The notes under the pieces: model-generated
What the model was told of the DNA's origin: nothing
Databases searched by the model: none
What the model saw: only the letters and a program-made list of their open reading frames with translations
Position numbers and translations under genes: made by a program
Source: Melanopsichium pennsylvanicum
Lineage: Eukaryota > Basidiomycota > Ustilaginomycetes > Ustilaginales
Direction: 5' to 3'
NCBI GenBank assembly: GCA_900208305.1
Contig: OAPG01000006.1
Location: 682,001-746,000, forward strand
DNA: 64,000 bases
Shown here: positions 15,083 through 27,693 of the stretch, piece after piece
How positions within the stretch are numbered: position 1 is the stretch's first letter
Layout of the letters: every line of letters starts with the position of its first letter

Positions 15083-15579
15083 GTTTGTTCAAGAGCGTGT
15101 TATATACGAAGATGGTCCTGGTTTTCCGTGCGTCGTTTTCGATAAACAATGGAGACTTCGAATCCAATCTGCTTGGCAGGTGTTCTCCTGAATGTAATGC
15201 GTTGACGAAAAAAACAGCGTCGTGTATGGTGGTGAATATGGTAGAGGCAAATGCGGCCAGAGATGGTCAAGATCGTCCAAGTACGAGTGCAGATTGGCAA
15301 TTTCGTCAAATCGAATCGGGCTAAGAATTGCAAACAGGCTGTGCAAGCTATGCTTTTACATCTCGATTGCTGGACCACGCGCTTGTCGCCCCTGTACGAT
15401 GAAATCACCCCATTGGAAGTATTGCGAGCTCCTCCGGAACTCGGCCGGTGAATGCAGAATTCTGACAGCGGCCCTTCAAACTCGAAAACGCCAGCATTTT
15501 CTCTTCGTTTAGCGCAGCCCCGTCTAGTGGATATATGGATAGAAGTCTCCGCAGGCGCAGCAATTTCCGATTTCAAGAG
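15083..15579. promoter_or_regulatory. divergent promoter region, DnaJ-X gene (-) and U2 snRNA gene (+)
   Basis: About 500 bases between the DnaJ-X start and the U2 TATA-like box. No coding frame is credible. A stretch at about 15513-15560 has an A-box-like GTCTAGTGG but lacks a matching B box, so I do not call a tRNA. Confidence 0.45.
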
Positions 15580-15586
15580 TATATAG
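15580..15586 (+). promoter_or_regulatory. TATA-like box of the U2 snRNA gene
   Basis: TATATAG lies about 36-42 bases upstream of the likely U2 5' end (about 15622), a sensible distance for a core promoter element. It is the only such motif in this interval. Confidence 0.5.
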
Positions 15587-15621
15587 TCAGGAGCTCGACC
15601 CGCACATCCTCCTATGAACCT

Positions 15622-15935
15622 CACTCTTCTGGCCTATTGTATGTATGCCCACCACAATGGCAACATGTCGCTCGCAATGCCAGTCCTCAGTTACTAACTA
15701 TTCTCGCCTTCTCCTGTTTCGACGTGCGCCGCTTCTCATCATACAGGGCTTAGATCATGTGTAGTATCTGTTCTAAATAGATTGACATCTATTTCTCCTC
15801 GCTCCGGCGGGGATTATATTGTCATACACTTTTTCCTAGCGGGAGATCGCCGTTCAGGTGCTTGCACCTCGGGATCTCGAGGATGTCCTTGGCCCTACAC
15901 TTACGCTTTGTGACGTCCGCCGTCCTCTCTTTTTT
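15622..15935 (+). ncRNA. U2 spliceosomal snRNA, interrupted by an intron
   Basis: U2 pairs with the intron branch site during splicing. Exon 2 (from 15747) begins GGCTTAGATCATGTGTAG and continues TATCTGTTCT, the near-invariant U2 core, with the branch-site-binding GTAGTA at 15761-15766. Joining exon 1 (ending CTTCTGGCCTATT at 15638) to exon 2 rebuilds stem-loop I as GGCC-TATT-GGCT. Downstream I can fold stem IIa (AAATAGA/TCTATTT, loop TTGACA), and stem IIb (CCTCGC-TCCG-GCGGGG). TGACA and TGTCA segments could form the alternative IIc pairing. A stem-loop III (AGGTG-CTTG-CACCT, 15856-15869) is extended by GAGATC/GATCTC. The expected Sm site is an atypical ACTTTTTCC at about 15827-15835. The 5' end is estimated by homology. 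The 3' end and stem-loop IV are uncertain. Confidence 0.88.
15639..15746 (+). other. mRNA-type intron inside the U2 snRNA gene
   Basis: 108 nt. The 5' splice site is GTATGT and a perfect TACTAAC branch site lies at 15692-15698. A pyrimidine-rich stretch without any AG follows, and the first AG after the branch site is the 3' splice site in CATACAG. It sits exactly in the four-base loop of stem-loop I. Removing it reconstitutes the canonical U2 5' domain; without removal no U2-like 5' end is present. Confidence 0.87.
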
Positions 15936-16601
15936 TGCGATTTTCTGCTTATGTAATCTCAAGTCAGCTCATCCAGTCCCCGAGACCGTGCTTTTTGTGT
16001 CGAGATTGAGATGCTGCAATCGCAGACCAGTGAAAATTTGATAGACAAAAAGAAGGCAAAAAGCTGGGGAAAAAAAGAATTGTCATAAAAGTAGGTGACA
16101 GAAAGGCGTTCGAAAATGCTTCCCGATGGCGCCCCTGTTGGCTACGACAGACCCCACCGATAGCACTGTCCAGCTCGTTGCGATGACGAGGTGCCTCTGT
16201 GCACGGTAAAGAAGCATCGGATGCTGGCGACCGGAGCGTTAAGGAGTGAACTCACACCGGAAGACCAGCTTTCGGCCTGCCACGGCAATCTAGCCCATCT
16301 GGGTATCGGGAGGCCAGGCCAAACAGTTGAGGAGCAGAGCAAAAACATCATTCAGCGGATGCCTTGAAATCGAGACGAATCGGGCGCTTCTCGAAACCAA
16401 CACAAGAAGACGCGCCGAGCCCACAGTCGCGTCGAAAAAGTGCTGAGACGCCCTCTCTCGCGCAGCGAACTTGAACAATTTCGCACAACACGCACAACTC
16501 TTCAGCAGCTTCCGTACGCGCTTAGGCTCCTCATCCTCTACCATCACCACCACGCCGTCCTTGTCCAGCTACCGGAGGCGATAGCGCAGCAGACTCTTAC
16601 A
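15936..16601. other. U2 3' flank and PIF1 promoter/leader
   Basis: About 660 bases. A T-run (15930-15937) follows the U2 body. The frame of PIF1 is open back to 16440 but has no ATG before 16602, so the Arg-rich upstream translation is taken as leader. No other feature is seen. Confidence 0.5.
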
Positions 16602-23809: not shown

Positions 23810-26800
23810 ATGAGCGATCCTTTGGCAGCAGTCTCATCCACTCTTCCGTTACGGACAAGGGATGTCGCTTCTACGCCAAGCCAGATCTATGCTGCCGACA
23901 CGTCTTTGAGGTGCGTAATTACCAAGTTCTCACGACCTGGATACGATTCATGCGTACACGATGACTGACGTTCTCTGTCCTCCGATATTACTTGCGAAAT
24001 AGCACTAGATGGAACTCTCTCTTCAGAGGCACTAGCTCGCCACCCATCGAAGCATTGAAGTCTCGTGCCATTCAAGGCAAGATAGCACAGCACGACAGTG
24101 CATCGTTACGGTGGATTCAATGGAAGCTGTTCCTTACAAAACACATTTCCAGCACTCCCTCTTCATGGTCCGCTGTTATTAAGCGAGATAGGGACGCGTA
24201 CAATGAGCTTAGATGCCGCTTACTCCGTGCTCCGGACGGCAACTATCCACCCGAAGTGGGGTTCGACGGCACTCACACCACCCTAGGCTCAGCAGCTGCT
24301 ACAAACCAACAAGATCCGCACGCCAGCTCGGCTCGAGTCAGACCAGCAGTAGTCAACGATCTCTCGGTCAACAATCCGCTCAGCCTAGATGATTCCAATC
24401 CATGGAAGACCTACTACAATACCCTTGAAACTAGAAGGGTCATTCTCCAAGACGTGGAAAGGACCTTCCCCGAGCTTGACCTCTTCCGCGTCACCAGCGT
24501 ACAGCAATCTCTCACCAACATCCTCTTCCTTTGGACCCTTGAGAACGAAGATGTAGGCTACAGACAAGGAATGCATGAGCTCGCTGCTGTGCTTTGGAAA
24601 ATCCGCAGCGATGGTGCTGTCGAAGCCCACAGCCTCTCGTCTTGCGACTCTTCACACGCCTCGACACGGGCATCAGCCGATGCTCCCTTTCAACATGCAC
24701 TTGCCGACGTCTTCATAGAGCACGACGTCTATGCGCTCTATTGTGCCCTGATGCAGAGCGCCAAGAGCTGGTATGCATGGCGCGACAGTCCGAGCGCAGC
24801 TGCCGATTCCGCACCCTCAAGTTCTCCGTCGACGTCCGCCAGGCCGCTGCCAAACAGCCGCAATTCGCCAGAAGGGCCCCGTCATCCCCTCCCCATCGTC
24901 GCAAAGTGCGAATACATCCTTGAGCTACTGCGTCACATCGATCCAGCTCTGGCCCAACATCTGCAGAGCCTGGGCATCGAGCCTCAACTCTTTTGCCTCC
25001 GCTGGATTCGCGTGATCTTTACCCGCGAATTTGCTCTCGACGACGCACTTGCCATTTGGGATGGCCTCTTCGCCTCCGAAGCCTCGTTGCACCTGATCGA
25101 CTACGTCTGCATCGCTATGCTGCTCCGAATTCGCAATCAGCTGCTGGGGGGCGATCATTCTTCCGCCCTGCAGAGCCTGCTACGATATCCTACAGAAGCC
25201 CAGGCTCAGCCGCCGCTCTTGATCAAGCAGGCCATCTTCATGAGAGGCAGCGGTCTTCAGCCCAGCACGGGCGTCGCCGTCGTCATGCAGAACCGAGACC
25301 TACTGGGCATCCCTGCGCGCTCCGTGGACGACCCAGCTCAGAGCTCTTCGCCTGCTCCACACACATCCGCCTCATCATCACAACGGCACGGTGCGCAGAA
25401 GTTTGCAACAGTAGGGAGGACGCCGTCCGGTGCCGCGGGAAGAGCGTCCCCATGGAGTCGCTTGCAGGATGCCAGCGCCACGCCCCGGAACGGCACCAAC
25501 GACTCTAGAAAGTGGCAATTACCTGCTATGGTTGCCGACCCCCCCGGTGCATCGAGCGCTGACACAAATGGACACCGAGCTTTTGGCATCAATCCATCGG
25601 CCTATCTGCCCGAGGGCATCAGCGATATCGCCAAAGGCTGGTACGAACGAGCTGAACTCCCGCAAACCTTAAACAGCGCCCTTGCCAACGTCTCTAAGAC
25701 CGTCGCAGCAGCAGCCAGCGCTTATGGAGCTCAAAAAGTCGAACCGTCTGGCTTTCCCTCGGGCTTTGATCAAGCATTTGCCAGTCAGACCGCACCTCGA
25801 AGCACCGCTCCGCCAACCACTGTTGGACACGCAACCTCGGGTAAAACCAGATCCAAGCTGCCTGTTGTCAAGCCTGAACGATCCACTCCTCCGCCTGCGC
25901 AGAGAAGCAGCGCAGAGCTTGTCGAACATCTTGGTAGGCTGTCCACTGCAAACAAAGCTATCGGCACAGCCCTGTCGGTCTGCATCAATGTACTAGAGCA
26001 AAGCTGGCTCGACCGAGCCGCGGGCGGCGACAAGCATTATGCCGATGAGCTGAGCGACATCAACACGTCGATGAGCTTTACAGCACTGAAACATATTCGT
26101 GACGTCCTCGACGGAACGACGAGCGAATTTGACCCTGCTGCGTTGCCAGAATCAGTGTCGAAGCGCCTCGGCTCGGATACTTCAGAACGCAAACAGACTG
26201 TCAAGAAGAAGCAGAGCACCTTTCCCGTGGAAACAGTCTCAAAGCAAGACTCTGCGCCAGCGAAATCCGCCGTGGACCAGACCCTGACCAGCCCTTCCTC
26301 CCTACCAATATCGCTCACCGAGTACGCACGGTACGGTCGACAGATGATTCTTCCCGATTTTGGTCTACCTGGTCAGCTTCGCCTTCGCAATGCCAAGGTC
26401 TTGGTGGTCGGCGCAGGTGGACTTGGATGTCCTGCTGTGCAGTACTTGGCCGCTGCCGGTGTCGGGCAGATTTCCATTCTTGACCACGACGTCGTAGAGG
26501 CCTCAAACCTTGCACGTCAGATTTTGCACAGTGATGCCACAGTCGGGATGCACAAAGCCGTCTCGGCAGCCAAAGCGGCCGAGCTGATTAATCCTTACAT
26601 TAATGCTGTGCCTATTGCGGAAGCGATCAGCGCTTCCAACGCACGACACATGATACGCGGTCAAGACCTTGTGCTCGACTGTACAGACAACCCGCTCACA
26701 CGGTATCTCATATCCGACGCTGCAGTGCTCGAAGGCATACAAGTGGTGTCGGGCGCAGCGCAAGGCTATGATGGACAGCTCGTCGTCCTGCACAAGCGGA

Positions 26801-27693
26801 TCAAGCCCGAATTTGCTGGACCAGAAGCATCTGCCTCTGCATCTGTGGGCGACGTTCGAGGTCCATGCTACCGCTGCCTTTTCCCCAAAGCACCTCGGCC
26901 AGACGAAGTGACGAACTGTGAAGACGGTGGTGTGCTCGGAGGGGTCACCGGTCTCGTTGGTACAATGCAGGCCTTGGAATCGGTCAAAATTCTTGCTGGG
27001 ATTGGGGAAGACACTCCGCCCATGCTGACGCTGGTCTCGCCCCTCACCTCTACGCCATTCCGATGCGTCAAGATCCGCCCGCGTCGTATCGCTACGTGTC
27101 GATCATGTGGCGATCCCTCGCAGGTGACAGCCTCGGAGCCAATGATTACGAACCTCGAGATTGAAGACTACGTTTCGTTCTGCGGTCTCAATGCTACCGC
27201 TGGCGGTGACGGTGATCTGCGTAGGACGGATGTTACCTCGATGGATCCAAAAGCGTTAGTCGTAGATGTGCGTCCGACAGTGGAGTATGGCATTACCAAG
27301 CTTGACGGCTCTCTCAATCTACCCATCCAGCAGCTGCTCAAGGATCCAAAAGAGGCATGGGAGAGAGTCCAAGTAGCTCAGCGAAGCACATCCGCACCGT
27401 CAGTGTTGGTGGTTTGCAAGAAGGGCAACGATTCCAAGCTTGCTGTCAAAGCGTTATTACGACAACAAAAGGAATGGATCGAGCAACAAGAAAAGGCAGA
27501 AGAGATCAAGGCTCTTCCGACAGCGCCATCACATCCACTAGGTCTTGCCTCAGATCTGACCACCAGCCAATCAACTGAAGTAGAAGCGGCAAAAGACAAG
27601 GCACAATTCATCACAGCATTACAGATCACCGACCTCATCGGCGGCCTTCGCACTTACAGCAAAGAGAAGAATCCATCCTTCCCAATTTACTGA
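23810..27693 (+). CDS. TBC (RabGAP) - Uba4/MOCS3 fusion protein, two exons
   Basis: Coding exons are 23810-23910 and 24009-27693, giving about 1261 residues. The long exon has no ATG near its start. The upstream exon (MSDPLAAVSS...) joins in phase across a GTGCGT...AG intron to give RWNSLFRG, the usual start of TBC1D5-like domains. The TBC domain (about 35-430) has the catalytic pair in ILQDVERTF (Arg about 186) and GYRQGMHEL (Gln about 220), with a disordered insertion. A disordered and helical linker (about 430-800) follows. Next comes a complete ThiF/E1 domain with EYARYGRQMILPDFGLPGQ, ATP site GAGGLGC (about 835-841), CYRC (987-990), TNCEDGG (C1004) and CRSC. The C-terminal rhodanese has VCKKGNDS (Cys 1170) and the end NPSFPIY is typical of Uba4. 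TBC proteins are GAPs for Rab GTPases. Uba4 activates Urm1 and MoaD for tRNA thiolation and molybdopterin synthesis. Confidence 0.85.

Follow-up and report, generated by a model that had tools for sequence, protein, structure and literature searches.

A locus in Melanopsichium pennsylvanicum is, with high probability, a functional U2 snRNA gene, the only one found in its assembly, interrupted by one U2-type intron that sits where the tetraloop of stem-loop I ends on its 3' side. The splice motifs, the structure restored by joining the exons, the complementarity to the U6 RNA of the same genome and the failure to find a second copy were all computed here, using the 64,000-nucleotide stretch of DNA around the gene (the window) and the assembly to which it belongs. 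The features of the locus, all on the forward (+) strand, are as follows.

15580..15585, +, possible TATA element TATATA, read directly, 37-42 nt upstream of the estimated U2 5' end; putative function
15622..15638, +, U2 exon 1, with a putative 5' end at about 15622; from motif reading and the score of the spliced end against reference U2s
15624..15631, +, CTCTTCTG, complementary over 8 bp to CAGAAGAG of the U6 of the same genome (U2/U6 helix II); from sequence pairing
15631..15638, +, GGCC and UAUU, 5' strand and loop of stem-loop I; from motif reading and fold
15639..15746, +, mRNA-type intron of 108 nt, GT...AG; from its motifs and a random-sequence test
15639..15644, +, 5' splice site GTATGT; from motif reading
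15692..15698, +, branch site TACTAAC with branch A at 15697; from motif reading; 48 nt from the end of the motif to the end of the AG
15730..15737, +, intron-internal CGCTTCTC, equal to the U2 5'-end octamer of a reference locus (L043) and complementary over 7 nt to GAGAAGC of U6; from sequence comparison
15740..15745, +, CAUACA, predicted partner of UGUAUG (15638-15643 or 15642-15647) in some folds; length-dependent
15744..15746, +, 3' splice site CAG; from motif reading
15747..15925, +, U2 exon 2 with GGCT, the U6-pairing GATCA and stems IIa, IIb, III and IV; from Rfam
15761..15766, +, branch-site recognition sequence GTAGTA, complementary to the intron's own TACTAAC; read directly
15828..15836, +, Sm-like ACTTTTTCC, aligned where the Sm site is expected (consensus AUUUUUGG); from the Rfam alignment

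The identity of the RNA comes from a search with Rfam RF00004, which the initial annotation had proposed as a check. Run on the unspliced sequence, cmscan returned U2 (gathering score 46) at 15728-15925 with 101.8 bits, a value that belongs to the unspliced and not to the spliced form, and this was the single RNA match above threshold in the whole window. Besides U2, no Rfam family matched at its gathering score in 15083-16439, so that no RNA was found within the intron. In the Rfam alignment the stems of U2 fit the model with few non-standard pairs; the 3' end of exon 2 at 15925 is set by this match, and the exon may reach to about 15935. The 5' end of the match is broken, the left half of stem-loop I being found 108 nt further upstream, and the 5' positions of the model are filled by the intron sequence GCCGCTTCTCATC; it is because this sequence aligns there that the unspliced gene still matches the family. 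A covariance model used alone for annotation can put the 5' end of U2 within the intron. The gene neighbourhood reads DnaJ-X / U2 / Pif1, and the DnaJ-X protein shares 94% identity with its counterpart in Ustilago loliicola (96% of the query covered), 92% with that in Ustilago sp. UG-2017b and 91% with that in Sporisorium reilianum, which places the window in a smut of that group. Elsewhere in the window, at 23992-27693, a single 1233-aa open frame combines RabGAP-TBC, ThiF and rhodanese domains, an unexpected mix which could be a fusion or an artefact of a long frame.

The initial annotation had described a U2 gene split by an mRNA-type intron, namely a 108-nt insert with GTATGT, a perfect TACTAAC and the first downstream AG as acceptor, and its coordinates and motifs hold. 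The boundaries read GGCCTATT/GT...TACTAAC...AG/GGCT, with one copy of TACTAAC in the intron, at 15692, and with 15745-15746 as the sole AG downstream of the branch site. The insert therefore has what defines a U2-type intron, GT-AG ends and a branch site complementary to U2 (GTATGT, TACTAAC, CAG), and we take its splice motifs not to be of the minor type. It is the GUAGUA of U2 that pairs with the branch site during splicing. The earlier placement of the intron was right as to the loop of stem-loop I and is corrected here to the 3' edge of the tetraloop, UAUU/GGCU. In 200,000 random sequences of 300 nt each, generated from an order-1 model of the local composition, the strict architecture (GTATGT and TACTAAC) did not occur once, and a loose architecture, defined as GGCC followed by 3-5 nt and GTRNG, a YTRAY branch site and no AG ahead of the fixed boundary, occurred in 185. 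An introner or repeat origin of the intron was rejected, as a DNA search of the genome found no other match to the intron with its flanks.

Removing the intron restores the 5' domain of U2. The spliced RNA begins with CACUCUUCUGGCCUAUU joined to GGCUUAGAUCAUGUGUAGUAUCUGUUCU, and its fold has the stem-loop I of U2, with GGCC and GGCU closing UAUU at pair probabilities of 0.54, 0.99, 1.00 and 1.00. The joined exons had been said to recreate GGCC-UAUU-GGCU and the U2 core, and so they do: the stem closes and the 8-mer complementary to U6 adjoins the core. We also compared the 25 nt upstream of GATCA with reference U2 5' ends from public assemblies (L043 and L046; L044 and L045 were left out on account of a U2 match near the record end and of a second L045 place without a U2-like 5' end). 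The spliced 5' end scores 10 against both references, a score reached by none of the 15,975 25-mers sampled every 4 nt in the window, and the unspliced 5' end scores 2 and -2, which 254 and 1,565 of the same 25-mers reach. The U2 core pattern was present in four stretches in prokaryote assemblies, which look like eukaryotic contaminants, and none was found in viral contigs.

The search for a second, intronless U2 gene, likewise proposed in the initial annotation, covered the whole assembly (21.1 Mb in 61 contigs, completeness value not given) and found none by any of the three means used. The covariance model gave one match, with 46 of 391 first-look candidates scored. The GUAGUA-bearing core, GTGTAGTATCTGTTCT, has its sole exact copy in the genome here; with up to 3 mismatches this 16-mer search gave 124 places in total versus 234 for the reversed pattern, the other listed places carrying 2 or 3 mismatches, and the seven listed with two showed no Rfam match at E 0.1. 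A DNA search of the assembly found no second U2 either. That U2 would be needed to splice its own precursor, as had been claimed, follows from this single copy, within the limits set by the completeness of the assembly.

A working U2 gene absent from the assembly, with the present locus a decayed or silent copy, is very unlikely. The 61 contigs and the missing completeness value leave room for it, and the aligned Sm place reads ACUUUUUCC and departs from the AUUUUUGG-like consensus, an oddity that slightly raises the chance of an impaired copy. Against decay stand the stems, which fit the model with few non-standard pairs and give 101.8 bits, the perfect splice motifs, a helix II word in exon 1 that fits the U6 of the same genome, and the lack of any further U2 in the assembly searched.

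The partner for that word lies in the one U6 match of the genome search, which scores 36.3 bits, under the family cut-off of 44, and has ACAGAGA and AGC intact. Exon 1 CTCTTCTG forms eight contiguous Watson-Crick pairs with U6 CAGAAGAG, which sits 10 nt past the GATGA of the U6 internal stem-loop, giving U2 a predicted helix II of 8 bp with its own U6; the unspliced alternative also offers 7 bp. The register of this pairing is presumably close to that of helix II in human and yeast. For human U2, nucleotides 3-11 are described as pairing with U6 88-95 in an excerpt of PMC5354520. In U6 itself, at L002:1501-1640, the stretch that separates the helix II region from the T-run can form a GCTTTC-TTCG-GAAAGC hairpin, with which GAAGAGA/TTTCTTC competes. 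The hairpin GCUUUC-UUCG-GAAAGC leaves CAGAAGAG free and has a probability of 0.71 in the isolated tail, and GAAGAGA/UUUCUUC, which uses up CAGAAGAG, has 0.28 there and appears in the minimum-energy fold of U6 alone; this second predicted fold would occupy the helix II partner and counts against the pairing.

The 7 bp of the unspliced form bear on a reading without any intron, in which mature U2 starts near 15726 with CGCUUCUC, stem-loop I is lost and the upstream motifs are chance; we consider it highly unlikely. The unspliced sequence does align with the whole Rfam model, and CGCTTCTC in the 3' end of the intron is identical to the U2 octamer of L043, its distance from GGCT differing by a single nucleotide; at spacing 7-9 this octamer turned up in 30 of 400,000 random sequences. 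A pyrimidine tract readily yields CTTCTC and raises the chance of CGCTTCTC, yet the match remains a real oddity. CGCTTCTC also pairs with GAGAAGC of U6 at -12.1 kcal/mol, slightly better than the -11.2 kcal/mol of exon 1, and these energies are reached by 119 and 202 of 12,780 window 14-mers, respectively; duplex energy was rejected as a discriminator between the two ends. The internal stem-loop, however, is 5 nt more distant from the U6 partner of CGCTTCTC than from that of exon 1. A start near 15726 also leaves U2 with no stem-loop I and with a 5' end that matches the reference U2s weakly, and it gives no account of the 5' splice site, the branch site, the acceptor or GGCC (the strict architecture being found in 0 of 200,000).

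With the intron as the preferred reading, it can be asked what the precursor could do. The initial annotation had expected unspliced RNA to be inactive since GCU opens exon 2, and this argument fails: the whole of GGCU belongs to exon 2 and the unspliced RNA contains it, which means that the intron leaves the helix Ib partner uncut. If the precursor is inactive at all, the cause would need to be the 108-nt insert, for example through a stabilised stem-loop I set against helix Ib. A better argument, which depends on modelled folds, would be that helix Ib is excluded in the four-way U2/U6 model that contains stem-loop I, as stated in an excerpt of PMC5354520, and that the intron ends prolong this stem-loop in some folds. 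The ends at 15638-15647 can indeed pair with 15737-15745 and prolong stem-loop I in the precursor, a prediction that depends strongly on fold length. The probability of the three GGCC/GGCU pairs is 0.37, 0.85, 0.015 and 0.65 with 60, 120, 150 and 189 nt of exon 2; it is thus about 0.65 in the full-length precursor (314 nt), and it rises to 0.97 with 20 nt added upstream. With 60, 120 or 150 nt of exon 2, stem-loop I is absent from the minimum-energy fold. Given this spread, the prediction is fragile, and retention of stem-loop I in the precursor, at first valued at 0.85, was kept as a lead only (0.015 to 0.97 by fold length). Shuffled introns reach the full-length value in 4 of 300 cases; the intron alone is about as stable as its shuffles (z -0.36), and the whole precursor slightly more stable (z -1.39, with 10 of 100 shuffles as good).

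On such folds one could picture the intron as a self-gating device, in which the paired ends would prolong stem-loop I, hide the 5' splice site and keep GCU from the U6 AGC triad, so that pre-U2 would be a poor U2 until spliced by mature U2. We hold this to be unlikely; if true, it would mean positive feedback on the U2 level, and the CGCUUCUC word at the intron end may then let pre-U2 still touch U6. That the insert instead stays in U2 as an enlarged stem-loop I, in all molecules or in part of them, and that these work unspliced, is extremely unlikely, for while its ends pair in the 314-nt fold (three GGCC/GGCU pairs at about 0.65, or 0.97 with the longer upstream stretch, and 4 of 300 shuffled introns as high) and the U2 elements beyond the loop are uninterrupted, the same pairs drop to 0.37 and 0.015 at other lengths, neither the intron (z -0.36) nor the precursor (z -1.39, 10 of 100) stands out clearly from its shuffles, and in the four-way model (excerpt of PMC5354520) helix Ib should be harder to form once stem-loop I is stabilised.

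As for the intron itself, its 108 nt are an ordinary length beside the smut introns described in PMC2219887, where EST-supported introns of U. maydis have a mean of 169.8 nt and a range of 24-1,899 nt, and where introns are few and long (0.48 per gene in curated models, 0.19 per EST-supported unit). The distance from branch site to acceptor is another matter. At 48 nt it lies outside the 6-36 nt quoted for fungal introns in an excerpt of PMC5832005, in which 4% of fungal U3 introns exceed 36 nt; by the quoted range it is not ordinary, and it counts against the best explanation. There is a weak hint that longer branch spacings are normal in this genome: of the motif pairs in 136,384 own-genome bases (window kept; dispersed-repeat loci, the U2-gene loci L001, L003 and L047 and the foreign loci L043-L046 left out), 25 of 54 were spaced at least 24 nt, versus 15 of 81 in reversed sequence, these being pairs from unconfirmed introns and fewer than in the control. 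TACTAAC is rare, with 3 occurrences in 133,571 own-genome bases on both strands versus 24 in reversed sequence, and is therefore not established as the usual branch word of this genome.

Among the other spliceosomal RNAs of the genome, introns were rejected for U6 and U4, whose matches both align without a large insert, and no conclusion was drawn for U1 and U5. The U4 has its Sm site as AATTTTTGG / AAUUUUUGG; in the U2 gene, the Sm-like ACTTTTTCC at 15828-15836 takes the place of ATTTTTGG and the usual G is absent. Rfam models for U1, U5, U3 and U12 found none in the whole genome, in searches that had no positive control, and U1 and U5 may be divergent or interrupted here. One place with the U5 loop and an Sm pattern has no Rfam support. 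The U1 5'-end word ATACTTACCT occurs at 47 places, none of them U1-like by eye, and cmscan, run on 8 of these places and on the U5 candidate, gave no match at E 0.3. At 30 of the 47 the word belongs to a dispersed repeat with ATACTTACCTGTACAA (e.g., L014, L018, L020), which mimics the 5' end of U1.

We infer that this U2 gene is transcribed, that it is spliced and that it depends on itself. The primary transcript would begin near 15622 and its intron would be removed by the major spliceosome, with GUAUGU read by U1 and U6 and with the GUAGUA of existing mature U2 pairing with the intron's perfect UACUAAC. Ligation of UAUU to GGCU would then yield mature U2 with stem-loop I intact and with CUCUUCUG at its 5' end, placed to form helix II with U6 CAGAAGAG. 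Production of U2 would in this way be self-dependent, and the circle would be broken by U2 inherited from the mother cell. A U2 gene that exists in interrupted form only would make the splicing machine rely on itself for its own core part, and it is a natural case for asking whether snRNA introns come from reverse splicing, why they are kept in intron-poor genomes and whether its own splicing sets the level of U2. Smuts are genetically tractable, and the question is therefore a testable one.

The closest known system is found in Rhodotorula hasegawae, which belongs to a different subphylum than the smut. An mRNA-type intron in its U2 gene, the precedent named in the initial annotation, does exist as a citation: Takahashi et al. 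1993, by its title in the reference list of PMC2586383. No description of a U2 intron in a smut was evident by title or abstract in the literature searched, whose coverage is partial and gives no proof of absence. Introns in fungal U6 snRNA genes, cited in an excerpt of PMC5832005, resemble the present case in that a spliceosomal RNA gene needs its own machine, and differ in the RNA concerned, the U6 and U4 matches here having no large insert. Fungal U3 snoRNA introns, in contrast, imply no self-dependence, as U3 stands outside the spliceosome, and their branch-to-acceptor distance has a mean of 15 nt in the same excerpt (PMC5832005) versus 48 nt in this U2 intron. An mRNA-type intron in U2, a rare arrangement, has thus already been reported, judging by that title, and the present gene, like that of Rhodotorula hasegawae, is a basidiomycete U2 snRNA gene so interrupted; what is notable here is that the search of a whole assembly gave no U2 other than this interrupted locus and that its intron is placed in stem-loop I.
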